A program made the position numbers and the translations under genes. From positions 62,001 through 126,000 of the forward strand of contig JAHRWA010000020.1 of NCBI GenBank assembly GCA_019090455.1: 64,000 bases of DNA, in the 5' to 3' direction. The stretch is from Pseudomonadales bacterium. Its GTDB lineage: Bacteria > Pseudomonadota > Gammaproteobacteria > Pseudomonadales > DC-out160. The notes under the pieces were generated by a model, which was not told where the DNA came from, made no database searches, and saw only the letters and a program-made list of their open reading frames with translations. Shown one piece after another: positions 40,724-64,000 of the stretch (positions within the stretch are counted from its first letter, which is position 1; each line of letters starts with the position of its first letter).

Positions 40724-43700
40724 TTACAACAACCCCTCAACACGACCCTCTGCTAGACCCTCATCATCCCGAGATTTTTCAACGGACTCAACTGCCCACT
40801 GTGATGCACTAATATACTCAGAGATTTCTGCAATGGTATGTAAGTCAAATAAAGTACGAAGCGGAATTTCCACTTGAAAACTTTTCCGAAATTGAGACGC
40901 AGCCTTAACGGCTAACAAAGAGTGCCCGCCCAAAGCAAAAAAACCATCATGAATACTGACTTTATCCAGCCCCAACACCTCGCACCAAATCGCTGCTAAT
41001 GTTTCTTCAATTTCGTTCCTTGGTGAAACGAATTCTGACATAGAAGAGTGCTGAGGATCTGGCAGTGCGGTTCGATCTATTTTCCCGTTTATTGTTAATG
41101 GCCAAGTCTCTAAAGCCATCACACTAAAAGGAATCATATATTCCGGTAAGAAACTCTGCAGGGCTGTGCGCCAATCGCTGGAGTCAAAAGCTTCTCTACG
41201 AGAAAACTCATTGCACAGCACATATCCCGCAAGCTTTTCCTCTTTTAAAACCACCAATGCATCGGTAATCTTTGGTAACTGGCGCAATGCAAATTCGACT
41301 TCTCCTAATTCAATGCGCAATCCACGTAGCTTAACTTGAAAATCACGACGCCCTATATATTCCAAATCGCCTGTTGGCAGGCAACGAACCCGATCCCCTG
41401 TTTTATATAGATGACCACTGTCAAAAGGGTTATCGATAAAAACGTTATTCGTCAGCGTCTTCTTATTGATATAACCTAACCCAACACCATCGCCAGAAAC
41501 ATAAAGCTCGCCCACCACACCCACAGGTACAGGTTGCAGGTTGTGATCAAGTACTCTGAGGTGAGTATTTTCTATGGCTCTTCCAATGGGAATGACACCA
41601 CTGCTTTCTTCACCTTCAACACACTCTTCATTTTCCAACCAATGAAATGCAACCACATCGCTACACTCCGTGGGACCGTAACTGTTCATCACTCGGCTAT
41701 GACAATCCCCCGAGGATAACCAAGTTGTCAATCTCGATTTCTGTATGGGTTCACCGCCTAGAATAACGCTGCGTAACGTCGACAGATTTTCAAAACATTC
41801 CTGCTCTATCACCTCTTCCTGCATTTCCACAAGTGGATAAAACAGACTCGGAGCGCAGTTGATCACAGTGATCTGAAACTTTTTGATATCCTCAACGATA
41901 CTCTCAGGATCATATCCATCCGTTTTCGGAATCACTAATGCACCACCATTGAGAATAAAGGCAAATAGGTTTTTCTGAGTCAGGTCAAATCCGATTGCAC
42001 TGACTAACAAGCCGCGAGCTGAGGAATCAAGTTTCAACTCTCGCCCGTACCAACGCTGCAGATTACTGACTCCACCATGAGTGATAGCTACGCCTTTCGG
42101 TTCACCTGTTGAGCCAGAGGTATAAATCACATAGATCGAGTCCAAGTTCGATATCGTCAACGATGGGTTGTCGATAGAACATTTATTAATTTCAGGGCAT
42201 CGCGCATCAAGACACAATATCGGAGTTTTAGCCGCTTCTGTATTATCCCTGCTGAATCTCTCGACTATCGCTTGATGCGAGACCAGCAAGGTAATTTGAG
42301 CGTCGTTCACAATATACTGAATTCGCTCTTTCGGCAGAGTGCTGTCGATAGGTATATATGCCGCGCCTGTTTTTACAATCGCTAAAATAGAAATCAGTAA
42401 ATCAGCGCCCTTACCTTCCGCTAGATAATCTAAACATACTCCCACCCTATTACCGGTCTTCATACCCGCATTTAAAAGATAATGGGATAACTGGTTTACC
42501 TTTTCGTTGAGCGCTATATACGTCAAACTATTGTCACCATTGATCAGTGCAATGGCTGTGGGTGTTTCAGCAACCTGTTGTTCAAACAAATCAACGATAG
42601 TCTCAATTGCCCTAGGCTCTTCTGCCTCTAAAAGGTGCTGCTTTAGAATGACTTTTTCTTGCGGCAGAATAAATTCTAAATCCCCCACTCGTTCCACACC
42701 AGACAAAATCTGTTTCACTAGCGATTCAAATCGCGGCAGAAAGTCTAAATCAGAAAACAGACTCGGAAGATAAATAAGCTTTAAATAAAGCCCCTCATCT
42801 TTCAAGGCCGCAACAAGTTGGACAGGACCGCGCAAGTCAGGGTCATAATTCCTTGACCTCGCATACTCCCCTTCAAACTCAATGGTCGGCAAAAAATGGT
42901 AATAATTATAAGTAAAGTGCAACCGACTCGAAGGATGCAGACGTTTCTGTGCAAGGTCCGAAATAAACTGATTGGTCCTCAACTGTTTTGAAAATTGACG
43001 AGCATATTGGCAAATCTCGATAAAGGATTTATCGCCATCAAACAGATGCTGCTCAAATACGAAGGGAATCGATTGAAAATAACATCCCAATGCACGTAAG
43101 TTCTGCCTTGATCTTCCCGCAGAAAACTCCGTCACCACAAAATCAGATTCTGCCCCGCAATAATTATTAATCAATAACCCGTAGATTGATTTTAGAAACA
43201 ACGCAGGGCTGGACCGATTTTGTTTACAATATTGTTTAATCTCTTGCCACAGCTGAATTTCTAAAACATGCTCAACCTCATGGTTTATTTCTCCTTGATC
43301 ATCTTCTTTCAGCTGTCGCGACGGCAACGGAAAATCAAGCGCAACAATATTGTTAAACCGTTCTCGCCAATATTCAAGCACCTCGAAGGTATCGAACTTC
43401 TCTCGATTCTCCGTTATATAATCGGCAAACACATCGGAATAAGTAGGGCATTCTTCATTTTGACATAATCGCGTATAGGCCTCGATCATCGATTTACCAT
43501 GAGTGGAAAAACTAACACCATCCATCAAAATATGATGCGCACTAAACACTCCCCAATAAACGTTCTCCGCGGTTTTTAAAAATTGGTAACTCACTAAAGC
43601 GCCATCGATCTTCCAAGGTCTCTGTATTCGCTGCAACACCAGCTGATGAATCTGCTCATCATTTAATTGCAGATGACTGCAGTCCAAATAATCCATCTCG

Positions 43701-46700
43701 GCCTTTACGCTGGCATCAACCACCTGGTAAGCCACATCCGTATACGGCACATCAGACTCCACCAGCCGAGTGCGCATCAACGATTGACTCGCCGCAACAT
43801 GGGCTTCTGCCTGCTGCCACAAATCCATTCTCATATTATCTGTCTTCAGTTCGACACAATACCCCATGCAATTCTGGCCATAGGACTTGCTCACCAGAGA
43901 ATCCAAATAAATATCTCTCTGTTTAGTGGTCAGACGCCGTATCTCACAGTCTTGCGTTACATCTAATATTCCTCTCAGCTCTTCCTCATTGGCCACTGGG
44001 ATATTGTCAATCAATGCGTCTGGCGCACTGATCATTGAGTACAGGACACGCTGGTACTGAGTAGCAAAACGTTCAATGGTGGATGGCAGAAACAAATCGG
44101 TATTGTATTCCAATACACCACCTATACCCTTCGCGTCTTCTGCCAGAATCAAAGATATTTCATACTTCGACGTTTTGTGTTCTCGCCCCACGACCTCAAC
44201 TATCAAGTCGTCGATTTGACCACCCAACTTTTCCTGCGGCGTATTTTGCCAAGCAAAGCCCACTTGCGCACCGGGAGAAAACGTTTGGCTACGCTCCACC
44301 TGCAAAGCATCGATCAAGAGGTCAGCGGGTATATCCTGATGCGAGAAAGCACCAATCGTTGTCTCTCGAACTTGCTCTAACAATTGGGTCACAGTGGGAT
44401 TGCCCGATACATCTGTGCGGATAACCAAGCCATTTATAAAAAAACCAATAAGGTTTTCAATTTCATCACGATTGCGCCCCGCAATGGGAACCCCTACGCA
44501 GACATCGTCCTGACTGCAATAGCGCGACAATAACAATTGAAATGCCGTCAGCAACAAAATAAAGGGAGTCATCGCATTGCGTTGACAAAATTGAACAATC
44601 TCAGCAGAAAAATTTGGATCAAACCTGATGGCATGATGGGCCCCATTAAAACTCTGCTGCGCAGGTCTGGGCCGATCGGTAGGTAATCGTAGTACCTCCG
44701 GCGCTCCCCTTAATTGCGCTAACCAATAATTCAATTGATTCTGTAACACATCACCCGACAACCACTGCCGTTGCCAGTGTGCGAAATCACGGTACTGGAT
44801 AGGGAGCGGATCTAATGGGGAGGGACGACTCTCTTTAAAGGCTTGGTACAGTAGCCTTATCTCTTTTATCACAAGGCCCAACGACCAACCATCAGAGGCA
44901 ATATGATGCATGCAAAACAATAGGACGAATTCAGAACCAGATAATTTCAACAAACGTGTTCGTAACAATAGATCGCGACGAAGGTCAAAAGGGGTATCCG
45001 CGTCCTCCTCCACATAACGTTGAATCTCATGACTTTGTTCTGGCAGCGAAAGTTCGCTTAAATCCACCACAGGAAGATCCCACTTCCTAGGTGCCTGTAC
45101 CACCAGCTTCACTAATTCCAAATCACCCTTATCTGCGTTTTCTTGCTCGTTTTCTTTAGCACAATCGTCATCGTAATCAATAAAACGAGTTCTCAGCACC
45201 TCATGACGATTAACAATTTCTTCAAATACCCGAGTGACGATATCGACCCGTAACTCACCCTTAATCCGCAATGCCGTTGGAATATTATAAGCAGTCTGAT
45301 CGGGATGCAGCTGATCAATAAACCAAAGTCGATGTTGAGCAAAGGAAACGGTAATCTTTGTATCAGATCCCAGAGCTGTTATCTTGGGCGCCACGTCCGC
45401 CAAACCCATTTCAATAGCAATGCCAATGGCTTTGGACATCCCTACTATTGTTGGCGCTTCAAATATTTTTCGCAGTGGAAGTTCAATCTGAAACCGAGTT
45501 CTCACCCGTGAAATAATTTGAGTGGCAAGAAGTGAGTGGCCGCCTAGATCGAAAAAGCTATCCTCTATACTTACTTGCTTAAGACCTAATACCTCCTTCC
45601 AAATATTTTCTAATGTGATTTCGGTATGAGTGTGAGGAGCCACGTACTCGGTTCCCACATCCATCAGATGACTCTTTTTAGTCAAACTCGCTCTATCAGT
45701 TTTACCATTGAGCGTTTTTGGAATCGCTTCAAGAATTACGAATCCACTGGGCACCATATAATCGGGAAGCCCTGCTTTCAATGATGCCTTGATGAGCCTC
45801 ATTGACTCTTCATCTCGGCTTCTGTGGGGCTTTGAACTTATACCTGCATGTGACTTAAGACCGATATGTGACTTTAAAACAACAAAGCCCACCAATCGTT
45901 TTGCTTGACTCTGATTCAGGCCATCCACCGCTAAGACAATGCAATCATGTACGCCATCCACCTTAGACAAGACTGATTCAATTTCTCCTAGCTCTACGCG
46001 GTAACCCCGGATTTTAACCTGTTTATCAATACGTCCTACATACTCAATTAATCCCTTGGCAACGTAACGCACTAGATCTCCGGTTCGGTACACTTTAGCG
46101 TTTTGATCGCCTGTCTGATGTTGAGCGAAAGAGAAAACCCCATGTGTCAGTTCCTCTTTGCCTAAGTACCCTCGCGTGACACCCGCACCTCCAACAACAA
46201 GCTCTCCTGCAATACCCGCCGGAACCGGTTTCCCTTGTGGGTTAACGATAGCGCAGGTCACATTAGCAATGGCCTTGCCAATGGGAATAGGCGAGCTAGG
46301 CGAGTTAAAGTCAGTCAACTTAAAATCAGTCAAATCGGCCGCCGTAGCCACCACCGTGGTTTCCGTGGGACCGTAGGTATTCATCAATTTAACATGATTG
46401 CCTATCCACTTTTGCCAGAGTGCAACAGAGGAGTGATGCACTCTCTCACCACCGATAATCATCAATCGCAAGGATTCCAACAGAGGACAAATTGCTTTCG
46501 ATAACTGACCCACCAACTCTTGCCAATAAGCCGTAGGCAAACTCAGTACGGTGATGCCATATATTTGAGTCGCAGTAAAAAAGGAATCCGCATCCCCTAA
46601 TAAAGTCTCATCTCGCAACACCAACCGCGCTCCCACGCACAGCGCGGGAAATATTTCTTCGATACTGGCATCGAAACTAATGGAGGAAAATTGCAAGACC

Positions 46701-49700
46701 ACGTCTTTCGAGGTTATCTCATAGAGATCAAGTGCAGAATGAATGTAATGCTGCAAGTTACCATGTTCCGCAACAACCCCTTTAGGTTGTCCAGTGGAAC
46801 CGGAGGTATAAATCACATAGGCTGCATCCGTTGCTGCACTCAAAAAACCTAATGCCGTATCAAGCTGATCATGAGCCTGTTCCACGAACTGATCTAGAAG
46901 AAAAAGTTTCGCCGAATGTTGAGGAAGTTGCGCTAGTAATGGCGACTCCGTCAGGAGCAAGGAGGCTTTCGATTCCTCCAGCATATACGCCAAACGTTCC
47001 TTGGGATAAGCCACATCCAAAGGTAAAAATGCCGAACCTGACTTCACAATTGCCAGCATTGCCACAATCATATCGATAGAACGTTCCACACACAGCCCTA
47101 TCATCACTTCTGGGCCAGCACCTTGAGACACCAAAAAACGAGCCATTTGGTTGGAGCGTTTTTCTAATTGATCATAGGTGAGACTCTGCTCTGAAAACAC
47201 CACTGCCACTTGCTCAGGAAATTGACTCGCCACTTTCGATAACAGTTGTGCCACGCTCTCTTGCGAAAACGGTTTTGATGGCCCTACCCCCAGTTGAACC
47301 AGTTCATTTTCCTCTTGCGGCAAAAGAAAATTCAAGTCCCTCATCTCGCTAACGCCATTGAGCACTTGTTCACTAATAGACTCTAACCGTTGCAACAAGG
47401 ATAATTCATCAAATTGGCCATCATGATAGTGCAGCCCCAGCGCTATTCCCTCTGAGGATTCCGTTGTCACTAGCTTCACGACATTCGGGCCTTCCGGTGT
47501 CACGAACTGTATCTCCGCCTCTTTACCCATAAAGGAAAACGAAGACGTGGCACTGGCTAGACGATAGTTCACTTGAAATTGCAAAACCGGTGTCGGCGTT
47601 AATTGCGACTGGCGGTGTAACGAAAGATATTGATTGTTACCCAAAGTCTGGCGAGTTTGTCGTGAAGCTTTAAAATAGTCTGCTATGCTAGCGCCCGCAC
47701 TTTGCATCTGATAATTGACAACAAAGGGAATGACTTGGATAAAACAACCTAGAGCGACATCAAATTTATCGCTTTCGTTTAGGTTACTGTCTTGTAGATT
47801 TCTGTCTTGTAATTTACTGCCCTGTAAATGTACACGTCGGCCTGCCACCACTTCACCAATAATAAAATCACCGCTAGCACGATGATATTCACTCACCAGC
47901 AAACTAAATAAACACTTAAAATAATTGGCTTTCGAAATAGATTGCTGCTGGCAATATTGTTCAATTTTTTCGGCATGCCGACTTTCAAGACACAGCCTTT
48001 TCTGTTTCGGTTTTCCAGAACCAGAACCAGAGTCAGAACCAGAACCCAAACTCACCGCTAAAGGCTCTACCCCTTTCAGCTTCTCAGCCCAAAAGGCATT
48101 AACCTCAGCAGTATCCGTCTTGGCACGGATCTGCGGAACAAAATTGAAAAATGGATTTTGAGGAAAAGATGGACTTCCCTCTATCGGTTTAGATCCTGTT
48201 GCCACTAAGCTTTCATAAACAGACAACAGCTGTCGTAAATGTTGACTCTCACTCATGCCATCTAAGACACCATGATGACAGGCTAATAAAGGCACGTAAT
48301 GTGTATCAGACAGTTTGATCAATGCATAACTCACCAAAGGGTCTTGATCCAAACAGTAAGGGTGACAAATAAAACCCTCAATCTCTTTTTGAAGATCAGG
48401 ATTATCTTCGTCTTCAGTATGCAAATGAGTAAGATTAATAGTAGTAAAATTCACTTCTATTGATTTTTGTACCACCTGATAAACCGGTTCCAAAGTCGGG
48501 TGACGGCTCTTAACAAACTTTATTCGTAACACATCATTGCGATCAGAGACAATTTTCAAAGCCTGTCGCCATAGACTCTCATCAATTCGGTGATGTAAGT
48601 GAATCGCATAACCCAAGGAGCAGGCTAAGGTCGATTGCTGAGTCTCACTTAAAAAATAGAAATCGCGCTGCATTGCCGTCAATGGCTGAAGAGCGCCGCA
48701 CTCATCATCTAATTTTAAAAGCACTCGCAATTCAGTGTCATCGTGAAGACAAATAGCATCGATCGATTGCGCTGAGTCACTCACAAAACAAGTCAGAATT
48801 CGTTTGTAATGTAGAGCCATCTCCTCGATAGAGTTCTCATCAAATAAATCCGTATTATATTCAAATGAGCCCTCCACTTCGCTACGCCCTGAATCCTGTA
48901 ATAACAGCGACAAATCCACCTTCGCCGTTGTCAGTTCCACATCCATGGGCTCTAGCTCAATACCGGCAAGAATAGGTTGCTGTGAAGAGTCCACGGATTC
49001 AGTGAGAGAAAATGCAACTTGTCGAACCGGTGCATAACTCATATCCCGTTCCACATCCAACACTTCCACTACCGCTTCAAATGGCACATCTTGATGAGCG
49101 TGAGCCCCTAATATACTGGTGCGCTCTCGCTGTATCAGATCCGCCACCGTAGGGTTATCATCAAAACGGGTTCGCGTGACCAAGGAGTTAACAAAAAAGC
49201 CGATTAACGGTTCTAACTCCTGACGATTACGCCCTGCGATAGGCATACCCACCGTAATATCTTGCTGTTGACTGTAGCGGCTCAACAACAGCTTAAAACC
49301 CGCCATCAAGGTCATATAAAGAGTGGCACCTTGCTGACGACTCAATTGTCTCAACTGCTCCACCAAATTTTCGTCCAACACGATGGGTAGATGTGCCCCC
49401 ACTTGAGTCTGTATTCTGGGTCGAGGGCGATCAGTGGGTAAAGTCAATAACGGGGGAGCCCCAAGCAAATGCTGTTGCCAATAGGCGAGTTGTTTTCCCA
49501 ACTCCTCACCCTGCAACCAATCCCGCTGCCATACTGCATAATCCACATATTGAATAGGTAGTGCGGGTATTTCTGCCACTGCTGGACTGACTGGGCTTGC
49601 TGTTGAGTTAGATGGTATTAATTTAAAATGGCGATAGAACTGAGCTAACTCCTGCACCAACACCTCAAGAGACCCGCCATCCGCGACGATATGATGCAGT

Positions 49701-50386
49701 GTCGCCAGTAGGGCATATCGGTGTTCAGACAGTTTGATAAGTCGAGTTCGAAGTAAGGGACCCGTAACCAAATCAAAAGGGCTCTCGATCTCAAGCTGAG
49801 CATGTTTGAGTGCTTTTGCCTCTCGCTCACCCTCATCCAAGAGAGAAAGATCGTGCATAGGTAATTGCCATTCACCTGGCTTTTGATTATCAAACCCTGA
49901 ATCAGCCAAGACCACCTGAACCGCCTCACCATCAACACTCTTAAAAACCGTTCTCAACACTTCATGTCGCTGAACAATCGCCTGAATAGACAGCCGTAGA
50001 GCCTCAACGTCTAGCTCTCCCTTGAGATACAAAGCGATGGGAATATTGTACGTACTACTGTTCGGCTCAAACTGGTCGATAAACCAGAGTCGTTGCTGAG
50101 AAAAGGAAAGCGGGAATTCAGTTCGACCTTGTCTATCCAACACAGGGATCGTTTGTTCGCTGGCTTGCCCCCCAACTCTGACATCCCTAAGAAAGGCGAT
50201 AACCTCCGCCTTATTGGCCACCAACTCCCCTCGTAATGATGGGGTCAGCGCCCCTTTCGGCGCTTTAAATTTGAGTTCGGGTTCTCCTGTCTTCTCGCTA
50301 TTTTCCAACCATAACTGAATCCCTTGAGAACCCAGTTTTTGTATCAGCGCCAAGACACTAGCAGGAGTATTACTATCGCCGCCCAT
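40724..50386 (-). CDS. Two-module NRPS, TubC-C-C'-A-T-C-C'-A-T
   Basis: This 3220-residue non-ribosomal peptide synthetase begins with a TubC-type docking domain (about 10-72, KFKAPKGALTPSLRGEL). Module one has a condensation domain (HHIVADG at about 49.7 kb), a second condensation-like domain (HHGVLDG, about 48.3 kb), an adenylation domain (TSGSTGQPKG, about 46.8 kb) and a carrier domain (GGHSLL, about 45.5 kb). Module two repeats this: HHIASDG (44.9 kb), HHILMDG (43.5 kb), TSGSTGEPKG (42.1 kb) and GGHSLL (40.9 kb). Hand-read specificity codes are DAESIGTVVK (like reported lysine codes) and DLKNIGSDVK (not assigned). No thioesterase follows; the protein ends with a 25-residue tail. Start and upstream stop overlap as TAATG, with AGGAAGGA before it, so translation is probably coupled. 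Confidence 0.93.
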   Translation of the reverse strand: MGGDSNTPASVLALIQKLGSQGIQLWLENSEKTGEPELKFKAPKGALTPSLRGELVANKAEVIAFLRDVRVGGQASEQTIPVLDRQGRTEFPLSFSQQRLWFIDQFEPNSSTYNIPIALYLKGELDVEALRLSIQAIVQRHEVLRTVFKSVDGEAVQVVLADSGFDNQKPGEWQLPMHDLSLLDEGEREAKALKHAQLEIESPFDLVTGPLLRTRLIKLSEHRYALLATLHHIVADGGSLEVLVQELAQFYRHFKLIPSNSTASPVSPAVAEIPALPIQYVDYAVWQRDWLQGEELGKQLAYWQQHLLGAPPLLTLPTDRPRPRIQTQVGAHLPIVLDENLVEQLRQLSRQQGATLYMTLMAGFKLLLSRYSQQQDITVGMPIAGRNRQELEPLIGFFVNSLVTRTRFDDNPTVADLIQRERTSILGAHAHQDVPFEAVVEVLDVERDMSYAPVRQVAFSLTESVDSSQQPILAGIELEPMDVELTTAKVDLSLLLQDSGRSEVEGSFEYNTDLFDENSIEEMALHYKRILTCFVSDSAQSIDAICLHDDTELRVLLKLDDECGALQPLTAMQRDFYFLSETQQSTLACSLGYAIHLHHRIDESLWRQALKIVSDRNDVLRIKFVKSRHPTLEPVYQVVQKSIEVNFTTINLTHLHTEDEDNPDLQKEIEGFICHPYCLDQDPLVSYALIKLSDTHYVPLLACHHGVLDGMSESQHLRQLLSVYESLVATGSKPIEGSPSFPQNPFFNFVPQIRAKTDTAEVNAFWAEKLKGVEPLAVSLGSGSDSGSGSGKPKQKRLCLESRHAEKIEQYCQQQSISKANYFKCLFSLLVSEYHRASGDFIIGEVVAGRRVHLQGSKLQDRNLQDSNLNESDKFDVALGCFIQVIPFVVNYQMQSAGASIADYFKASRQTRQTLGNNQYLSLHRQSQLTPTPVLQFQVNYRLASATSSFSFMGKEAEIQFVTPEGPNVVKLVTTESSEGIALGLHYHDGQFDELSLLQRLESISEQVLNGVSEMRDLNFLLPQEENELVQLGVGPSKPFSQESVAQLLSKVASQFPEQVAVVFSEQSLTYDQLEKRSNQMARFLVSQGAGPEVMIGLCVERSIDMIVAMLAIVKSGSAFLPLDVAYPKERLAYMLEESKASLLLTESPLLAQLPQHSAKLFLLDQFVEQAHDQLDTALGFLSAATDAAYVIYTSGSTGQPKGVVAEHGNLQHYIHSALDLYEITSKDVVLQFSSISFDASIEEIFPALCVGARLVLRDETLLGDADSFFTATQIYGITVLSLPTAYWQELVGQLSKAICPLLESLRLMIIGGERVHHSSVALWQKWIGNHVKLMNTYGPTETTVVATAADLTDFKLTDFNSPSSPIPIGKAIANVTCAIVNPQGKPVPAGIAGELVVGGAGVTRGYLGKEELTHGVFSFAQHQTGDQNAKVYRTGDLVRYVAKGLIEYVGRIDKQVKIRGYRVELGEIESVLSKVDGVHDCIVLAVDGLNQSQAKRLVGFVVLKSHIGLKSHAGISSKPHRSRDEESMRLIKASLKAGLPDYMVPSGFVILEAIPKTLNGKTDRASLTKKSHLMDVGTEYVAPHTHTEITLENIWKEVLGLKQVSIEDSFFDLGGHSLLATQIISRVRTRFQIELPLRKIFEAPTIVGMSKAIGIAIEMGLADVAPKITALGSDTKITVSFAQHRLWFIDQLHPDQTAYNIPTALRIKGELRVDIVTRVFEEIVNRHEVLRTRFIDYDDDCAKENEQENADKGDLELVKLVVQAPRKWDLPVVDLSELSLPEQSHEIQRYVEEDADTPFDLRRDLLLRTRLLKLSGSEFVLLFCMHHIASDGWSLGLVIKEIRLLYQAFKESRPSPLDPLPIQYRDFAHWQRQWLSGDVLQNQLNYWLAQLRGAPEVLRLPTDRPRPAQQSFNGAHHAIRFDPNFSAEIVQFCQRNAMTPFILLLTAFQLLLSRYCSQDDVCVGVPIAGRNRDEIENLIGFFINGLVIRTDVSGNPTVTQLLEQVRETTIGAFSHQDIPADLLIDALQVERSQTFSPGAQVGFAWQNTPQEKLGGQIDDLIVEVVGREHKTSKYEISLILAEDAKGIGGVLEYNTDLFLPSTIERFATQYQRVLYSMISAPDALIDNIPVANEEELRGILDVTQDCEIRRLTTKQRDIYLDSLVSKSYGQNCMGYCVELKTDNMRMDLWQQAEAHVAASQSLMRTRLVESDVPYTDVAYQVVDASVKAEMDYLDCSHLQLNDEQIHQLVLQRIQRPWKIDGALVSYQFLKTAENVYWGVFSAHHILMDGVSFSTHGKSMIEAYTRLCQNEECPTYSDVFADYITENREKFDTFEVLEYWRERFNNIVALDFPLPSRQLKEDDQGEINHEVEHVLEIQLWQEIKQYCKQNRSSPALFLKSIYGLLINNYCGAESDFVVTEFSAGRSRQNLRALGCYFQSIPFVFEQHLFDGDKSFIEICQYARQFSKQLRTNQFISDLAQKRLHPSSRLHFTYNYYHFLPTIEFEGEYARSRNYDPDLRGPVQLVAALKDEGLYLKLIYLPSLFSDLDFLPRFESLVKQILSGVERVGDLEFILPQEKVILKQHLLEAEEPRAIETIVDLFEQQVAETPTAIALINGDNSLTYIALNEKVNQLSHYLLNAGMKTGNRVGVCLDYLAEGKGADLLISILAIVKTGAAYIPIDSTLPKERIQYIVNDAQITLLVSHQAIVERFSRDNTEAAKTPILCLDARCPEINKCSIDNPSLTISNLDSIYVIYTSGSTGEPKGVAITHGGVSNLQRWYGRELKLDSSARGLLVSAIGFDLTQKNLFAFILNGGALVIPKTDGYDPESIVEDIKKFQITVINCAPSLFYPLVEMQEEVIEQECFENLSTLRSVILGGEPIQKSRLTTWLSSGDCHSRVMNSYGPTECSDVVAFHWLENEECVEGEESSGVIPIGRAIENTHLRVLDHNLQPVPVGVVGELYVSGDGVGLGYINKKTLTNNVFIDNPFDSGHLYKTGDRVRCLPTGDLEYIGRRDFQVKLRGLRIELGEVEFALRQLPKITDALVVLKEEKLAGYVLCNEFSRREAFDSSDWRTALQSFLPEYMIPFSVMALETWPLTINGKIDRTALPDPQHSSMSEFVSPRNEIEETLAAIWCEVLGLDKVSIHDGFFALGGHSLLAVKAASQFRKSFQVEIPLRTLFDLHTIAEISEYISASQWAVESVEKSRDDEGLAEGRVEGLL
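42600..43960 (-). other. Atypical second condensation-like domain (C'), module two
   Basis: It opens LTTKQRDIYLDS where ordinary C domains have SFAQHRLWFIDQ. It keeps HHILMDG. It has LGCYFQSIPFVF where C domains have IGFFINGLVIR, and RTNQFIS where they have SHQDIPAD. It shares LVSY and the other changes with the C' of module one, so the two form one subtype. Confidence 0.75.
45842..45877 (-). repeat. 18-bp tandem duplication in NRPS
   Basis: ACCTGCATGTGACTTAAG and ACCGATATGTGACTTTAA (plus strand) encode LKSHIG and LKSHAG in the C-terminal part of the first adenylation domain, 13 of 18 identical. Confidence 0.7.
46304..46333 (-). repeat. 15-bp tandem duplication in NRPS
   Basis: GTTAAAGTCAGTCAA and CTTAAAATCAGTCAA encode LTDFN and LTDFK between core motifs A5 and A6 of the adenylation domain, 13 of 15 identical. 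Confidence 0.85.
47783..47827 (-). repeat. 15-bp tandem repeat, three copies, in C' of module one
   Basis: GTTACTGTCTTGTAG, ATTTCTGTCTTGTAA and TTTACTGCCCTGTAA encode LNxxx/LQDSN/LQDRN-type units in a loop of the C' domain. Confidence 0.9.
48015..48044 (-). repeat. 6-bp tandem repeat, five copies, in C' of module one
   Basis: Five units of CCAGAA or close variants encode the Gly-Ser-rich GSGSDSGSGSG loop of the C' domain. Confidence 0.9.
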
Positions 50387-53300
50387 TATATTGATCCTTC
50401 CTCAAACTCATCATCATCCTCTTCTGTCTCTTCCTTAAAAGACTCGCCACCTACCGCAATAATAATTTCTGCAATACCCGCGATAGTGGCCACTTCAAAT
50501 AACGTTCTTAAGGGTAAGTCCACATGCAATTGTTGAAGTATCCGTGAATGAGCCTTGGTCACCAATAATGAGTGACCACCCAACTCAAAAAAATCATCCT
50601 CAATACCCACTTGAGGTAACGATAATAATTCACGCCAAATTGCCACTAAGGTTGTCTCTACTTGATTTCGCGGCGCGACAATTTCATGAGCGCTCTCCTC
50701 CCCGCCATCCCAAGGAGGTAATGCCCGACGATCAACCTTACCGTTAGCAGTGAGGGGAAACTCTTCCAACAAAATAAAATAGTTTGGGATCATGTAACGT
50801 GGCAGTTTGTTTTTAAGAGTCGCTTTAATCTCGGCGATTGTCACTGTTGAGGAATCCCCTCTTACATCAAGAGGTACATCAGCTTTTATATCAGTTAAGA
50901 CATAAGCCACCAAGTGTTGATTACCCGAATCCACCAGTACCACTGAATTTTGCACACCCGGTACATTTGAAATAGCTTGTTCAATTTCGGCCAATTCAAT
51001 TCGAAAGCCGCGTATCTTCACCTGGTCATCTATACGGCCCAACATTTCAATACTGCCATCTGGCAAGTATCGCCCCCAATCTCCCGTGCGATACAGTAGT
51101 TCACCTTTCAAAAAGGGGTGGGGTATAAAACGTTGTCGCGTCAAATCCTCATCATTTAAATAACCCAGTGCCAGACCCGGTCCACCCGTATAGATTTCAC
51201 CAGGAACGTCAATAGGCACTGGCCGGTGCCGTTTATCCAGTACGTAAACAGTAGAATTAGTATTCGGCTTTCCAATTGGGACCGTTGATACACCCTCAGC
51301 CACCGCATTCACCTCGTGCCAAGTGGAGATAGTGCTGTTTTCAGCAGGGCCGTACAAGTGGATCAGATGACAGGAAAAATCACATTCAATGACCTTACGT
51401 ATCGATTGCGGATCACAAGCCTCACCACCGAACAGAAGATAATCCAAATCTTCAAACACAGCGGGCATCTCCTGCGCATACAAATTGAATAATGCCGTAG
51501 TGAGAAACAGTACTGATATCTCATGGTGTATTATGGTTTCGTAAAACAAACGAGTGGATAACAACTCCTCTTTGCTAATCCCAATCAAGGTGCAACCATT
51601 TAACAAAGCTCCCCAAATTTCCATTGTTGCCGCATCAAAGGAAACATTAGCGGCGAGTGCCACGCGTTGTTTTGGCGAGAAATCAACATAATCGGAGTGC
51701 AACGCGAGCCGAATGACGCCTCGATGAGGGATGCAAACGCCTTTGGGGGTTCCGGTTGAACCTGAGGTGTAAATCACATTCGCGAGTGATTCCCCTCCCG
51801 GCACCCGCTGCACGATTAAATCCACATTAGATTGCGCAGCGATAAGATCCGCTTTTCTGTCTAGGCATAAAAGTTGATGAGTATCACTAACCTCTGAAAG
51901 ATCCGATTCCTTTAGACAACGCTCGTTACTAATAGCGACAGGGCCAGACGCCGAAGAAGGCGTAGCGCGAGCGATGTCTTGTAACATAAACTCGATTCGG
52001 TCACGGGGATAACCGGGGTCTATGGGCACATAAGCTGCACCCACTTTCAATACCGCTAACATAGCAACGATCATTTCTTCGCAGCGGTCTAAACATAAGG
52101 CAATCAAATCCCCCTGTTTAACACCACTAGCGACCAAATAGTGGCTCAGCTGATTGGCTTTTTGATTTAGCTGAAGATAGGTTAATTGTGAAGAGGTTAA
52201 TTGCGTACGGGTTAATTCCGTAGAGGTTAATTGAGAGCCGCCAAACACCGTCGCCACACTGTTTGGCGCACGTGACACTTGCTCAGCAAACACATCTTGT
52301 ATTAACGCACTCTGATCAAATTCCCATTTATTCTCATTCCAGTCGAAAACGCATTGCTGTGTTTCCTCTGGACTTAACAAGGGAAGCCTCTCGATAGGTA
52401 ACTGAGGGTTATCGGCAATCGCTGTCATCATCTGCACTAAATGACCCAGGGCACGTTCTATTGCAGCGGGTTGAAAAACAAAACTATCAAATGAAAAACG
52501 AAGTACGAAATCCTCTCCCGGTAACGCGATTAACGTGAGCGGGAAATTCGTTTGTTGGAAGCTCGCTATATCTCCCACTCCCAGTGACTCTTGATACGCT
52601 TTTAATGCGGAATCCACGGGGTAGTTTTCGAAAACCAAAATACTGTTAAATAAAGGTGATTTACTGGGTACATCACTCCACCGCTGAATATCCACCAATG
52701 AAGATGATTCATAGTTCTTCAACGGTAATTGTGTTTGTTGTGTCGCCTGACACCAGGACACAAAGCTCTGCTCTTCAACAACCTGCAATCTCATGGGTAG
52801 TGTGTTGATAAACAGACCCACCATGCTCTCGATTCCTGGTACCTCTGCGGGACGCCCAGAAACGGTGGTGCCAAAACACACATCCGATTCACCGCTATAA
52901 CGACTTAATAGGATGCCCCAAAACCCTTGTAATATTTGATTGAGTGTTAAATGATTTTGCTTTGCCATTTTTTCTAAAGAACGAAGCAAAGCGGGATCAA
53001 GAATACACTGTCTCTCTTGATAGGCCGCCTGCCCCCCTGAACTGTCTTTTTGATATTGAGCCACTTCGGCTATTGAATTATTGATAATTAATGGCGTCGG
53101 AGCAGTGAAGCCTAGTAGGTAATCTTTCCAAAACAATTCGGCCTCATCTCCATCATTGGATTCTAGCCATTCGATATACTTTTCGTATTTGGGTGCAATC
53201 GCTAATCCAGGAAAAACGTCGGGGGGCTGATGGGTTTTCTGGTCCGGATTTCTCTGGTCCTCGATTTTGACATCACAGAGTTTTTCGTAGACTGCAAAAA

Positions 53301-56300
53301 GCTCACCAAAAACCAGCGGCATTGACCAGCCATCCAGGAGGATATGATGAAAACTCCATATAAACTGATATCGCCCACTGGGTAATTTAATTAACACCAA
53401 ACGACTGATGCTGGATATGGAAAAATCAAAACCGGTATTTCTATCGTCTTCTAAAAATTGTTGCAGTCGTTGATCCACTTTCGCCTCTGCAAGACCTTCG
53501 CCTGAGGAGGACCAATCTAATGCTACAAACGGCAGCGAGATACTTTGCCTTACCATTTGTAACGGACGGGCGACTTCTTGCCAAAGACAACTGGAACGTA
53601 ATATAGGATGGCGCTGATAAATAATTTCCCATGCTTTCACAAAGGACTTGGCGTCCAAATGAGATCCAAGATCGACACTCACCTGATCGAAGTAAACCCA
53701 CGAATCCGGTTCCATAAGACTATGAAACAACATCCCTTCTTGTACCGGCGACAGAGGATATATATTTTCTACATCCCTAATCTCGCCCACCACCGCATCT
53801 AGGGTGACCTGATCCAGCTGGGCCAAAGGGAAATCCGACGGAGTGTAACCGCCGTGTTTGAGTTGGCCATCACTACTATTACTACCATCGCTAACCTCAC
53901 AACAGTGATCAATAATAGTCTTGAGATTATCAACAAACTGATTCGCTAGAGTATCGATGGTGCCGGCATCGTGAATGGCATTGCAATACCGCCAGTTCAT
54001 TTGTAAACAGCCGTCCAATACCCGACCACTGACTTCTAATAGATAATGTCGCGGACCCTGTGGCGAGATTTCAGCGCCTGATGACTCCATCGCAAGTTGA
54101 ATTAACGGTTCAGTAGCAATCGTATTGGAATTATTTTCTAACACACTATCGAGTTGCCCCAAGTAATTAAAACTAATTTGTGCTTGCGGCTGTTGTCTTA
54201 GCTTCAATCGAGTTTGATCATCGGTGCTTCGGTATTTCAACAATCCGTACGACAAACCTTTTTTGGGGACAATATGTAAATATTCCTTTGTCTGTTTTAT
54301 CTGTTTGGCTAAACCCGACTGCTTTTCAGTTGATGGATCGAGAGTTAATGAATCGAGAGTTAATGGATCGACAGATAAAGAAACAGGAAAAATACTGGTA
54401 AACCACCCTACGGTTCTAGACACATCCACAGTGTCTGAGATTTCTTCTCGACCATGACCCTCTAGATCAACCAACACAGTATCGGCATCCGCCCACGGTC
54501 CTAACGTCATCCCCAGAGCCGTCAACAAAAGGTCATTGATCTCAGTGCGATACGCTCCACCTGCCTGAGTCAATAGCTGAGTGGTATCCTCCTCGTTCAA
54601 ACGAATATCGATGGACTCCACCTGCGCAACGGTATTCTCACCGTCACGATCAACGGGCAATAATGTATTGTCACTTTGCTCAGTCAACCAATAGGCTTCA
54701 TCATTGATAACATCAGAACCATGACTGTAATCTTCCAATGCCATCATCCATTGCAACCAAGAACTCGTCTTATCACCTAAATCTACATGAATTAGATTCA
54801 CATGATCCGAACCCACATACCTCAAATCCACATGATCTGAATCAACCAAATCTGGAGTATCTCCGTGAGACGGTGTTAACAGCTGTTCCAAAGCTGTCTG
54901 TAAATCTTCTAGTAATATTCGCCACGAGAACACATCCACAACCAAATGATGGGCGACGGCAAGAAGTCGGTTTCTCTCTCCACTGGGCGTATTAATAAAA
55001 ACAAACCTGACCAACGGCCCCGTAGCCAACACCAAACTCGATTGTGCTGTATTGCAAGCGGAGGTCAACGCCTCCTCAAAACCGGCTTCGGCTACCGTAC
55101 TCAGATCTCGTATTGAAAATACCGCATCCCTTTGCTCATCAGTCCACTCGTCAAAACACATCTCCCGTTGTTGTGTTTCGCCTGCATCATCCGATTTTGA
55201 GTCACGCTGTACCGAAGGTCGTTTAAACGTAGCCCGTAAACTATCATGCTGGCTTAAAATGGCGTATACCGCTATCTGAATTGTCGTTGATGAAATAGTC
55301 TCAGCAGTGGAAAGTAACACCGACTGATTGTAGTGTTTCACCTCATCCTGTGAATCATTGTATTGATCGAGATAAAAACGCTGTACTGGACTCAATTTTG
55401 CTTTACCAATCACCGACCCTTGATCAGCGCAATTTGCTGCACTCAGTTCGGTGGCCACAGCCGCCAACTCAGCGATGGTTTGATACTCGAAAATCTGTTT
55501 TGCTGTCAGTTGTAACCCCGCCGTCTTAGCCCGACTCATTATTTGAATACTGAGAATGGAGTCGCCTCCCAGTTCGAAAAAATTATCCGTGACGCTAATC
55601 GCATCGTTATTCAACACTTGCGTCCAGATGTCTGTAAGAGACTGCTCTTTGTCATTACGCGCAACCACAAAGGTTTCCGCTGCGATCTCTTTATTCGGTA
55701 ACGGCAGCGCCGGCACATCTAACTTACCATTCGCCGTCAACGGTAAAACATCTAATAGGACCATTGCCGATGGCACCATATAACTGGGTAAACTCTTTTT
55801 GAGACCCGCGTTGATCATCTCAATATTTAGCGTTTTATTGGGCGACTGTTCTTCAGATAAGCTCTCAGATAAAGCCCCCACCGACAAATAGGCCACTAAT
55901 CGTTTTTGTCCCGGCTCATCTTCACGCACCAACACAACCGCATCATGAACGCCGTCAAATTCACGCAGCGCAACAGCGATTTCAGCCAACTCGATTCGGA
56001 ATCCTCTTAACTTCACTTGATCATCAATACGCCCAAGGATTTCAATGGCACCATCATCACGATAGCGCCCCAAATCACCGGTCAAATAGAGACGACCCGT
56101 TTCTCCACTCTGTGTCTTGTTAGCTCTTTTCCTCGTAGCAAAGGGATCGGGAATAAACTGCGCCGTCGTTTTTTCTAACTGATTCAGATAACCCAAAGCC
56201 AAACCGTCCCCGCCACACACGATTTCCCCCGCGACTCCAGGGGGCACAGGGTGCCCTGCAGTATCCAGAATATAAGCCGTGGAATTGGAAATGGGATAGC

Positions 56301-59300
56301 CGATAGGGATAGTCACCGCACCTTCAGGCACTTCCTCTACCTTAAACCAAGTGGAATAAACCGTGTTCTCAGTTGGGCCGTACACATGAATTAAGTTCTC
56401 GGGGGGGCTCTCTTTTAAAATACGTCTGACCCGCTGCGGGTCTACCGCCTCACCACCAAACAACATGGTTTTTAAGCGCCCAAACAAGGCAACATGATGC
56501 AATGAAAATGCGTTTAATAATGCCGTGGTGAAAAACAAGGTATTCACCTGGGTTCTATCGACCTTCGCTATAAAATCATCTGGCGATAACATTTCATCTT
56601 TTGAAAACCCCACCACACAAGCGCCGTTACACAAGGCTCCCCAGACCTCAAATGTGGATGCATCAAATGAAGTATTAGAGCAATGTCCTATTCGATCCTC
56701 AAAATCGATATCGATATAATTAGTGTTTCGCACCAATCTCACGACGCCCCGATGAGGAACGCAGATGCCTTTAGGCTTCCCCGTGGAACCAGAGGTATAA
56801 ACGATATAGGCCAGTCGTTCTGATGATTTCTTTTGAACGGAGCTGGCTATATTGCTGGCTAGACCGAAAGTAGGCATGAGCTGAATTGCCTTCTCATCCA
56901 CATCAGCATCAATCAACACCATCTGTTGCTGTTCCGGTTGATAGCTTTCAATACGCGACTTCATATCCGAGCGGGTGATTAACAGTGATGCCTTTGCATC
57001 TTTCAGCATGTAGGTAATTCGATCGTCGGGATAACTGGGGTCTAATGCCAGGTATCCCCCACCGACTTTCAACATGGCCAACTCCGCCACTATCGTCTGC
57101 CAAGATCGCTCTAGCATGATAGCCACAACAGAATCTTCGCCTATCCCAAAGGTGACAAGATAATGTGCTAACTGATTGGCTCGCGCATTTAACTCGCCAT
57201 AGCTAAGTACCACTTCATCAAAAACAACCGCTTGTCTATCCGGGTTTTGCGCGACTTGGTCTTCGAATAACTCATGAATACAACGATGGGCGGGATACTC
57301 TGTCTGGGTGTTATTCCAGTTAATGAGGATTTGTTTTTTCTCAGACGACGTCAGCCACTCTAATTCATCCACACCAACCGCTAGCCCCTGACTCATACTT
57401 TGCAGCAAGACTTCAAGGTGTCCCAACATCCCGGCAATGGTGCTGCTGTCGAATAGACTCGTGTCGTAGGACAATTTTAGTTTTAATTCGGCTCCGGGCT
57501 CAACGATAACAGTCAAGGGATAATTGGTATGCTCAACGCTCTGCACATCCTCCACGGCCAACAGCAACGTTTTATCCTGAAGAACCTGCTCAACAGGATA
57601 GTTTTCAAAAACTAGAATACTCTCAAACAAAGGTTGGTCGCCGGGTACTTCAGATACATGATGAATATCAACCAGAGGAGTGGATTCAAATCGTCGACTT
57701 TCGATTTGCATGTTTTGCATGGTTTGCAACAACGTGATCAACGGTTGATTTTTTTCAATCCGTAATCGTAGGGGCAGCGTGTTAATAAACAAGCCCACAA
57801 TATTTTCCACATCATTTAACTCAGCTGGCCGTCCCGATACGGTGGTACCAAACACCACATCTTGTTCGCCACTATAGCGAGACAGCAATAAGCCCCACGC
57901 TCCCTGCAACAGCGTATTAAAGGTGAGATGTTGATTTTTAGCGAGTGCTTGTAAACTCGCTGTCGTGGTGGTGCTGAGTGACAGTTCCCGCTCTTGGTAA
58001 ACCGATAGTTCTTGCTCTTGATATACCGACATCTTCGATTGTTGTTCTGTCTTCCCTACCCTCTCTGCGTTCTTTTTTACCGTAATGAGAGTGGGTGCAT
58101 TAAAACCCGCTAGATAGGACTGCCAAAACTGAGCGGCTTCAGACGCATCGTTTCGACTCAACCAGGCTATGAATTGATGATATTTTGGCGGCGATGGCAA
58201 TCGCGGTATATTGCCTTTCACTAATTCAGAATAGCTAACAAACAGCTCTCGCATCACAATAGGCAGGGACCAGCCATCCAGAATAATATGATGAAAACTC
58301 CAAACTAATCGAGTCTGATTGTGACTGAATTTAATCAGCGTTAATCGGTTCAAGCCTGGCTTAGAAAACTCAAACCCTTTCTTCGTGTCGCCTTCCAGAA
58401 ACCGAGCCAACTGAATGGCTTTTTCTGCTTCACTCAAATGACAAAGATCCACAACTTCAATCTTTACTGCCAAATCGGAGTAGACCACTTGCAAGGGCCG
58501 AGAAAGCCCTTCCCAAATAAACGCACTACGCAGCACTGCATGACGACGAATGATACTATTCCAAGCTTGTTCAAAACGTAAATGATCAACCTCCCCATGC
58601 AGTGCAACGGTCAATTGCTCCACGTATACCCCGGCATCTACGTCGTCTAACGCCTCCTCGTAAAGCCCATGAAAAAGCATACCTTGCTGCATAGGGCTCA
58701 GTGGATATACGTTCTCAATTGCGGCTGTCTGGCCAAATTGCTGATCAATTGTTTCTTGTGTTAATTCAGCCAATGGAAAGTCTGAAGGTGTATAACCAAA
58801 ATATCGTGTATCAATACAATGCTCAATAATCTCAGTTAACAACGTGATATAGCGACTAGCAACCGTCTCGATGCTCTGCACATTGAAACGCTCATTGCTA
58901 AAGGTCCATTCCAGTTGTAACTGCCCCTCTAGAATATGCCCATTGATATCAAGCCCATGCATTCTCTTTGTTGTGCTCGCTTGATCACCGCCGCGATCTG
59001 CTGTCGTTAGAGAAAATAGAGAACTATTTTCCTTTATCGAATCGAATTGCCCTAGATAATTAAAAGCCACTTCCACCTTTGACAGCACGGCCAGCTTATT
59101 CTGCACTGCGGCATCTTGATTCCATAATCGATGCATCCCGAACCCAAAACCGTGATTGGGGACTCGACGGAGTTGCTCTTTAATCGACTTGATTTGTGCT
59201 TCTAGTGAGGCTTGTTCTCCTTTATCTGAAACAGGTAGAGATATGCCCACAGGATAGAGGGAAGTAAACCACCCTACTGTGCGAGAGAGATCAATCCCCT

Positions 59301-62300
59301 TGGAGTCCAAGTCGCGTGTATCCGTCTCGCGCCCATGCCCTTCGAGATTAATCAGTGCCTGTGAAAACCCAGTCCACCGGCTCAAAGTCTGCATCAGTGC
59401 CGTGAGCAAGATATCGTTAATATCCGTATTGTAAGCCGAGTTCACCTCACGCAATAATGATTGGGTCAACTGGGGATCTAATGCAACAACGACTTTTTTC
59501 TCCTGCGCTACGCAATTTTTTATTGATATATGGTTTATTGCAGTACCCTTTATTTCAGTACCTTTTATTTCAGTAATGTGACCCCTAGAAAAATTCGCTG
59601 GCAGTGCAAAGGTTGAGTCATTTAAAGAAAGCGTATCCGACAACTCCAGCCAATAACTCAGGTCAACGTCAAATCCCCCGGAATCAAAATGCGCTTTATT
59701 CGTCGCTGTCCATTGTCGAAAGGAAGTGGTCTTCTCACCCAACATCGTCGCAGGCGTTTGCGATGAATGACAAGCTTGATTAAAGTCCTCCAATAATATG
59801 CGCCAAGAAACGCCATCCACAACCAAATGATGTATCACCCAATGGAGTAAGCGTTCTCCATTGGGCATTTGGATTGACACCGCCTTTAATAATGGTCCTG
59901 TTTCCAAACATAAACTGGCTTGGTTCTGACGAAGAACATCTGCTAAGGCACTTTCTTCCGTTAGGATCACGGTAGAGAATAACGCTTCAGGCTTAGCGCC
60001 ATAGCGTTGGTGCCAAGACGAGTTTCGGTGTTCAAACTGCATTCGCAGACCGTCGTGCTGATCGACAATACGGCTCAGAGCATATTCTATTGTTTTATTG
60101 CTAAGCTCTCGGCCTAACTTCAATAACACGGCTTGGTTATAGTAGTGGGGTTGCTCTTGCTGTTGACTGAAAAACCACTGTTGAATAGGACTTATTAACG
60201 CCTCACCTTCTAACCTGCCTTGCTCTGCTAACACCGGATGATCAACTTCCGAGGCAGCCCCCGCCAACTCTGCAATGGTTTGGTTTTCAAATAACTGCTT
60301 TACTGTAAGGCGTATCCCCGCCTTCTTTGCCCGACTGATAATTTGAATACTCAGAATGGAATCGCCACCCATTTCAAAAAAGTTATCGTGTAGACCTACG
60401 TTCTTAATATGTAGTACATCTTTCCAGATATTAGTTAAGACCCGTTCTCTCTCTGTGCTCGGTAAGGCTGATTTTGTTTCAGAGTCAATTTCGATGGGTA
60501 GTTTAAGCAACGCCACACGATCAATTTTTCCATTGCGGGTCAGAGGCAAGGAGTCCATCAACATGATGACAGACGGTATCATGTAATGGGGCAATCGCTT
60601 TTTCAAATTCGATCGTAATGTTTTTCCCTCAAGATCGTCCGCGACGAAATAAGCCGCCAAACGTTTAATGCCCGGTTCATCTTCGCGTACAACAACCGCA
60701 ACTTCTCGCACGCCCTCGATCTGAACAATGGCCTCCTCTATTTCAGCCAGCTCAATTCGATACCCCCGAACCTTCACCTGCTGATCCTTGCGGCCTAAAT
60801 ACTCAATGACACCATCAGCCCGATAACGCGCTAAATCACCTGTTTTATAGAGGCGTTCGCTAGACTCATCCCCCGCTAGCGCAAAAGGATTGGGAATAAA
60901 AACACCCTCGTTAAGATTCGAGTCAAGGTAACCTTTAGACAAACCGTCACCAGAGCTACATAGCTCGCCCACCATTCCCACCGGTACGGGCTGCAAATTC
61001 TGATCAAGAATATAAATCGTGGTATTAGCAATAGGACGCCCAATGGGAACTCGCCCTTGCACCTGCTGGCTCTGTGTCATGGGATAGCAGGAAGTAAAAG
61101 TGGTGTTCTCTGTCGGCCCGTATCCGTTCACCAAACAAAGGCCCTGGACTTCATCCAGCACCTTGCGCACCCATTTCGGCGATAAGACATCGCCCCCAAC
61201 CAATAAGGTTTTCAGCGGATGAAAACACTCTATTTTGTATTCGGCAATAACGTGAAACAAGGCTGCCGTTAGCCATAGTGAATTGATGGATTCTGTTTTT
61301 ATCAAATCATTTAATGCATCTACCGTCATCTCACCCGCTGGAGCCACCACTAAGGTGCCACCGTTTAACAGGGGTGCCCAAATTTCCAAGGTTGAGGCAT
61401 CAAAGACAATGGGAGCGTACTGCATAAAAACAGTCGTCTCATCCATCGTCATAAAGTTGTTATTTTTTACCAGCCGGGTCACATTGCGATGGCTGACTTC
61501 AATACCTTTCGGTTTTCCCGTGGAACCAGAGGTGAACATGACATAGGCCGATTGAGCGCCATCAATATCACTCCACATTCTTTTTGAATCTATTGCCGAA
61601 TCGGTTTCCGCCTTATTAACCCACTCTTTGATTTGGCTGCTGGTAACAATATCCATCGGCTTAACAGGCAGGTGATGCACTAGTGAAGAGTCCACCACTA
61701 CTAATTTTAAATTTGCACTATCGATAAGGGTCTGCAATCGCGCTTCAGGGTAATTCCAATCGAGGGGTACATAAGCCGCCCCCACTTTCAAAATACCCAG
61801 CAAGGATGTCATCATATGGAGTGAGCGCTCTACGCAGAGCCCCACACGATCACCCGGCAACACACCACGAGCAAGGAGTATCTGAGCTACCTTGTTCGCA
61901 CGCTGATTCAATTCTCCATAGGTTAACGCTTGCCGTTCGCCACTTTGGGACTGATGCACAACAGCGATATTGTCTAGACGGCTCTCTACTTGTAATTCAA
62001 AGTAGTGAACGATACTGGCGTCACGATCATAATCTGTTTTTAGTTGAGTCTGGGTTTGGGTTTGATTCCACTCGACTAATATCTGTTGACGTTCATTCTC
62101 CTGCATTAAATTAAGAGTCGAAATTTTCTCCGCCGGGTTTTGTAAAATAGCCTTCAATAGAGATCTAAAGTGATTGGCGATTCTAGCGATGGTCGCTTCG
62201 GAAAATAAATCCGTATTGTATTCCCACTCGCCCTTTAGCTGACCTTGATCTTCTTTTAGATTCAAGGATAAATCGAATTTAGACGACGCGGTCTCGGCGG

Positions 62301-63561: not shown

Positions 63562-63600
63562 TAATGAGGGCCTTAACGGCAAAAAGTACTTCCGATGTTT

Positions 63601-64000
63601 CTAGATGGGCTCTTCGTCTTCTAGCCCTTCAATTTGAGTTAACAATGCTGCCAATTCTGCATCATCCAACTCATCGACTTCCGCTTCTACTATCTGTAGT
63701 GCAATGTACTCAATAGTAGGTTGCTCGAACAAAATACTCAATGCCAATTCAACATCAAACTCATCCCGAATACGAGAAACCAACTGGGTCGCCAATAAAG
63801 AATTGCCACCCACATCGAAAAAGTTATCTCGAACGCCCACTTTTTGTAAATCCAATACATGACACCAAAGAGCCACAATCTCCTGCTCGGTTTGATTTCG
63901 AGGCTCGACATACTCTATGGAGGAATCCCGATTGTCAGTGGGCTTAAGCAGCGCTCCTTTATCAATTTTTCCGTTTGATGTCACCGGTAAACTATCCAGT
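63601..64000 (-). CDS. NRPS, 3' end: adenylation-domain end and carrier domain
   Basis: The reading frame stays open to the right edge, so only the last 132 residues of a larger synthetase are visible. The first residues (LDSLPVTSNGKIDKGALL) are the final adenylation core motif with the catalytic lysine. A carrier domain follows with the phosphopantetheine serine in DNFFDVGGNSLLATQLVSRIR. The protein ends in an acidic helical tail (DELDDAELAALLTQIEGLEDEEPI). The next synthetase starts 39 bases downstream on the same strand. The sequence shows the peptide is already at least one residue long when it reaches the three-module protein. Confidence 0.92.
   Translation of the reverse strand, partial: LDSLPVTSNGKIDKGALLKPTDNRDSSIEYVEPRNQTEQEIVALWCHVLDLQKVGVRDNFFDVGGNSLLATQLVSRIRDEFDVELALSILFEQPTIEYIALQIVEAEVDELDDAELAALLTQIEGLEDEEPI

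Follow-up and report, generated by a model that had tools for sequence, protein, structure and literature searches.

Why should a nonribosomal peptide synthetase (NRPS) place two condensation (C) domains directly one after the other, with no carrier between them, ahead of a single adenylation (A) domain? This question is raised by P0001, a 3220-residue protein of a marine gammaproteobacterium of the order Pseudomonadales, encoded within a 64,000-nucleotide stretch of DNA (the window; contig JAHRWA010000020.1, positions 62,001 to 126,000, assembly GCA_019090455.1). Its open reading frame specifies four condensation, two AMP-binding and two PP-binding carrier (T) domains behind an N-terminal TubC docking domain, and a thioesterase (TE) is absent. 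We refer to the second condensation-like domain of each pair as C'. Our analysis suggests that C' forms a clade of acyl-transfer domains capable of catalysis, each acylating the residue held by the module to which it belongs, internally most probably on the side chain; we assign this reading a probability of roughly 0.45. The domains of P0001 are as follows.

40724-50386, minus strand: NRPS gene P0001, TubC-C-C'-A-T-C-C'-A-T, without TE
50186-50350, minus strand: TubC-type N-terminal docking domain (Pfam PF18563, 52.5 bits)
48728-50119, minus strand: first C domain, LCL type, HHIVADG, HQDVPFE
47300-48691, minus strand: C'1, HHGVLDG (48257-48277), GCFIQVIPF, NNQYLS
45671-47245, minus strand: A1, code DAESIGTVVK, which we take to be lysine (Lys)-like
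45416-45616, minus strand: carrier domain T1
43967-45367, minus strand: second C domain, LCL type, HHIASDG, HQDIPAD
42647-43942, minus strand: C'2, HHILMDG (43517-43537), GCYFQSIPF, TNQFIS; predicted full C-domain fold, mean predicted local distance difference test (pLDDT) score 94.6
41051-42589, minus strand: A2, code DLKNIGSDVK, homoserine (Hse) type
40796-41005, minus strand: carrier domain T2, the final domain of P0001

Both modules contain the C-C' pair that a first-pass annotation of the sequence had described, and the order recurs in a separate metagenome-assembled genome (MAG) as C-C'-A (code DAESIGTVVK)-T-C-C'-A (locus L030, contig JAESQG010000158.1). Because C'1 and C'2 are only 32.5% identical and this separate MAG has the matching arrangement, the pairs are neither duplicated nor misassembled, and an assembly error as their source is ruled out. 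The two ordinary C domains share 42.9% identity, and C and C' share 23-24%. All motifs that had been pointed out are present: HHxxxDG is intact in both C' domains, which begin with RDFYFLS and RDIYLDS, respectively, and carry the GCxxQxIPF-type and NQxxS-type motifs listed above, while the preceding C domains show HQDVPFE and HQDIPAD. The interval proposed at first, 40724-48790, omits the first C domain, which begins at about 50119, and the modules span about 40724-50350. Similarly, the description as the last two modules applies to P0001, but for the assembly line as a whole it is not clear, given the lack of a TE and the likely continuation on another contig.

Phylogenetic analysis placed every C' copy in one clade with full support (100) in every tree, in agreement with the proposal of a single subtype, whereas starter C, DCL, LCL and epimerisation (E) domains formed other clades. 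The 17 starter C domains, RzmA included, made up a clade of their own, so that the trees place C' outside it; a sister relation was not rejected. In the free trees, C' stood beside DCL domains (support 87-90). The nearest solved relatives by sequence profile are likewise of the DCL type (bacitracin synthetase 3, tyrocidine synthetase 2, PvdL, SrfA-C), with 100-171 bits in comparison to 56 for RzmA, 41 for the X domain and 33 for CDA-C1. Dual, Cglyc, dehydrating, CT and heterocyclisation domains were compared by PDB profile score alone, and all scored below the best DCL entries. Unlike DCL domains, however, C' has no E domain upstream, follows another C domain instead of a carrier or opens the protein, carries the GCxxQxIPF and NQxxS motifs and sits on a long stem branch. 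The predicted structure of C'2 is a complete C fold that matches solved C domains of various subtypes, none of them preferred, with template modelling (TM) scores, normalised by query, of 0.72-0.82. Of the 75 C' domains, 74 retain the second histidine of HHxxxDG, while the first is sometimes replaced by asparagine or cysteine. A surfactin starter sequence served as bait for the PDB search only and is in no tree; the subtypes compared in the trees were starter C, DCL, LCL and E domains, and an interface role was judged by partner gene and active site.

The retained active site bears on the idea that C' is a non-catalytic domain which, like those of the interface or X type, serves for recruitment or as a scaffold. 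Interface domains, as found in siderophore NRPSs, are likewise members of the C superfamily, lie as extra domains within a module as well, and are now detected by antiSMASH 8 as parts of NRPS modules. Unlike these, C' has a non-degenerate HHxxxDG motif and lacks a TauD partner: the complete genome G028 encodes five C' domains and zero TauD proteins, and none adjoins the C-C' clusters studied. The X domain, which is among the weaker PDB profile matches (41 versus 171 bits for the best), has lost its active site and lies between the last T and the TE, whereas C' keeps its active site and precedes the A domain. The contrast with X and interface domains drawn by the first-pass annotation was therefore well placed, recruitment of a hydroxylase found no support, and we rejected the interface idea on the absence of TauD and the intact active site. 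Any recruiting role seems highly improbable.

Profile searches detected C' in 28 genomes out of 391 from the same order and in four of 369 genomes of a class sample, namely that of the window and three from other families; in a phylum sample, no genome besides that of the window had it. The window's genome itself holds 12 copies spread over several clusters. Seven named loci, recovered by a profile search of contigs with a three-row alignment, belong to Pseudomonadales MAGs, one uncultured Gammaproteobacteria MAG and one BD1-7 clade genome. In genus g55, the six genomes analysed all carry five C' domains each, in NRPS genes of similar size. The conserved 14-module cluster of this genus was compared with the turnercyclamycins of Teredinibacter by rough arithmetic on published m/z values; there was no match, and the comparison is unused as evidence. 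In the open-licence literature searched, the tandem arrangement is unreported, and a description of the clade elsewhere is possible. At one locus (G056:C4 95871-107999), C-C' is followed directly by a T domain, with no A domain detected.

The substrates predicted for C' modules are strongly biased. Among the 76 A-domain codes that follow an internal C', 75 correspond to residues with a side-chain hydroxyl or amine: Hse (58), diaminobutyrate (Dab, 11), serine (Ser, 2), Lys (2), ornithine (Orn, 1) and threonine (Thr, 1); the remaining one is glycine (Gly). After dereplication, such codes account for 47 of 48 modules with C' versus 30 of 74 modules without it (Fisher p 5e-12, a value still inflated by shared descent). 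Modules lacking C' have codes ranging over aliphatic residues, alanine, Gly, glutamine, Thr, Ser, Hse and others, and the same bias is found in family f163 of the class (Hse and one Thr). The Hse code follows published assignments in two papers. As numbering reference we used the A domain of GrsA, which yields the expected code DAWTIAAICK, and the Dab code, a putative assignment, is backed by an EctB equivalog adjoining the G066 cluster.

Hse, Dab and Orn thioesters are able to self-cyclise to a lactone or lactams, and C' might accordingly hold or transiently acylate these and Lys thioesters as a form of protection or editing, leaving no extra group in the final product. Among the modules coded, Dab, Lys and Orn were indeed not seen without C', which fits such a function. 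In contrast, 23-24 Hse modules function without C', Ser and Thr cannot self-cyclise in the same manner, and an N-terminal C' on a valine/isoleucine module needs no protection; we consider this explanation improbable. The same breadth of residues argues against a non-acylating modification such as dehydration, lactam or lactone formation or epimerisation, since no single reaction suits Hse, Dab, Lys, Orn, Ser, Thr and an N-terminal valine/isoleucine. Related C domains are thought to form dehydrobutyrine or dehydroalanine in laxaphycin-type lines, which lends this option some plausibility. However, C' is apart from E domains in the trees and, unlike an E domain, does not follow a T domain, and a modification of this kind is decidedly unlikely.

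Additional information on the acyl donor comes from four C' domains that open proteins and have neither TubC, nor a helical docking sequence, nor an upstream carrier. In two of the clusters, C39 and G151, the C'-opening protein is the sole NRPS of the cluster without TubC, its partner NRPSs having this domain, and FAAL modules were not found. Because docking domain, upstream carrier and FAAL module are all missing there, these C' domains start the chain, and their donor must be untethered. Proteins of L027 and C2b also begin with C', although these loci are partial or single-module. Within C', the copies that start a chain group together as a subclade, which is the deepest split in one tree, the base being unresolved in another. 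Like the starter C domains RzmA-Cs and CDA-C1, they begin a chain without an upstream carrier and have the full C fold and catalytic histidine; starter C domains differ in their separate clade and low profile scores. The starter-type position, as first domain of the line with a donor not bound to a carrier within the NRPS, is seen for N-terminal but not for internal C'. The residue matching position 148 of RzmA, which sets acyl length in that protein, does not separate the two groups.

Several genes lie beside C'-opening proteins. Similar membrane proteins adjoin the two clusters that open with an N-terminal C' (G000:C39 47673-48905 and G151:C17 70105-71331), the latter matching the acyltransferase-3 family PF01757 slightly above the cut-off. 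The single-module protein C'-A (code DLIGIGITLK)-T of C2b (G000:C2 11120-16853, L011) adjoins a KamA-family radical SAM protein resembling lysine 2,3-aminomutase, and also a TauD-like protein that scores under the TauD cut-off.

The position of internal C' domains invites comparison with icosalide synthetase, in which module 3 contains an embedded Cstart domain that acylates, in vitro, the Ser after it (PMC8949500). There, too, two condensation domains precede A-T and the extra one acylates the residue of the module in which it sits, as is proposed for C'; 70 internal C' domains share this layout, in which a C domain is followed by another condensation domain whose catalytic histidine is intact, and then by A-T. 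In the main rival explanation, an internal C' would likewise be an embedded initiator that puts a beta-hydroxyacyl group on the alpha-amine, while the preceding C domain joins the upstream peptide to the beta-hydroxyl as an ester, or else to the side chain; fatty acids or side chains would thereby enter the backbone. The chemistry would be that of the N-terminal C' domains. This explanation leaves the near-constant side-chain nucleophile unexplained, however, and the icosalide domain is a starter C, whereas C' falls outside the tested starter clade, occurs up to five times per line and is paired with nucleophilic-side-chain codes. Overall, we find it rather unlikely, although it deserves more weight than any other rival.

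In a tree of 117 LCL domains, those that precede C' cluster whatever residue follows (3 label changes versus a shuffled mean of 39), while C domains before Hse without C' are scattered. The C-C' pair therefore behaves as a unit; either C and C' are co-inherited or C is adapted to accept a residue that C' has altered beforehand, and the sequence data fit both.

Taken together, an active acyl-transfer domain, an untethered donor in its N-terminal kin, residues with a second nucleophile and an adjacent ordinary C domain favour side-chain acylation. This possibility had been raised for a Lys-like residue in the first-pass annotation, and it now appears to be the best-supported of the readings considered. 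The acyl donor, either acyl-CoA or a free acyl carrier, would be independent of the module before C', and C' would transfer the acyl group to the amino acid on the carrier of the same C'-A-T unit. A line-opening C' would acylate the alpha-amine of the first residue like a starter C domain, whereas an internal C' in C-C'-A-T would acylate the side-chain hydroxyl or amine of Hse, Dab, Lys, Orn, Ser or Thr, the preceding C domain coupling the alpha-amine to the growing chain. The data show the architecture, the existence of the family, the conservation of the catalytic residue, the chain-starting place of the N-terminal copies and the bias in predicted substrates; from these we infer the substrate identities, the donor, the nitrogen or oxygen that is acylated and the order of the two reactions.

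Several observations weigh against side-chain acylation by C'. No dedicated acyl-donor gene was recognised for internal C' domains. The trees do not unite C' with starter C domains, although a single clade of both was not rejected in an approximately unbiased test run on a smaller tree (p-AU 0.39), and the sister relation of C' to DCL domains is tentative. In G028, the first C' of one protein (G028:C1 1897971-1907318) is a decayed copy with HESVMDS instead of HHxxxDG, so that its reaction is dispensable in that genome. One internal C', the divergent copy C2a, precedes the Gly-type code. Besides the Hse modules mentioned above, many Ser and Thr modules do without C', and a suitable side chain alone therefore does not call for it. 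Finally, the A-domain substrates are predictions from 10-residue codes, those for Lys and Orn, including DAESIGTVVK, being putative.

Within its assembly line, P0001 follows two further NRPSs of the window:

50386-63582, minus strand: upstream NRPS P0002, C-A-T-E-C-A-T-E-C-A-T, with a helical N-terminal docking sequence and an acidic tail
63601-63984, minus strand: C-terminal carrier of the first NRPS of the line, FAAL-T-C-A-T-C-A-T, which extends past the window to C14:134567

The line thus runs from this FAAL protein, which starts outside the window, through P0002 to P0001, and the docking sequences, helical on P0002 and TubC on P0001, agree with this order. Comparison with the similar G066 and G028 clusters suggests that P0001 is likely continued on contig C63, which ends inside an NRPS. 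Modules of the type C-T without A occur at G000:C63 56704-67632 and G028:C1 1912887-1922933, where the G066 equivalent is C-A (code DLKNFGSDIK)-T; they may be loaded in trans. The G066 and G028 clusters also contain a diaminobutyrate transaminase and a stand-alone condensation-like protein each (G066:C1 457790-459034, a weak Pfam match below the cut-off; G028:C1 1952110-1953414, judged by its start only).

In the lipopeptide that the window's line would make, the N-terminal acyl group would come from the FAAL module, and the peptide would bear two more. More generally, we tentatively propose, at somewhat less than even odds, that an undescribed condensation clade acylates carrier-bound side chains and that lines with two to five C' domains need no separate tailoring acyltransferases to produce lipopeptides with several acyl groups. 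If true, position-specific acyl addition would be built into the NRPS itself, and C-C' might provide a portable cassette for lipopeptide engineering. In addition, subtype tools may call C' an ordinary C or DCL domain, in which case the structures predicted for many gammaproteobacterial peptides would be incorrect at the residues that C' serves.
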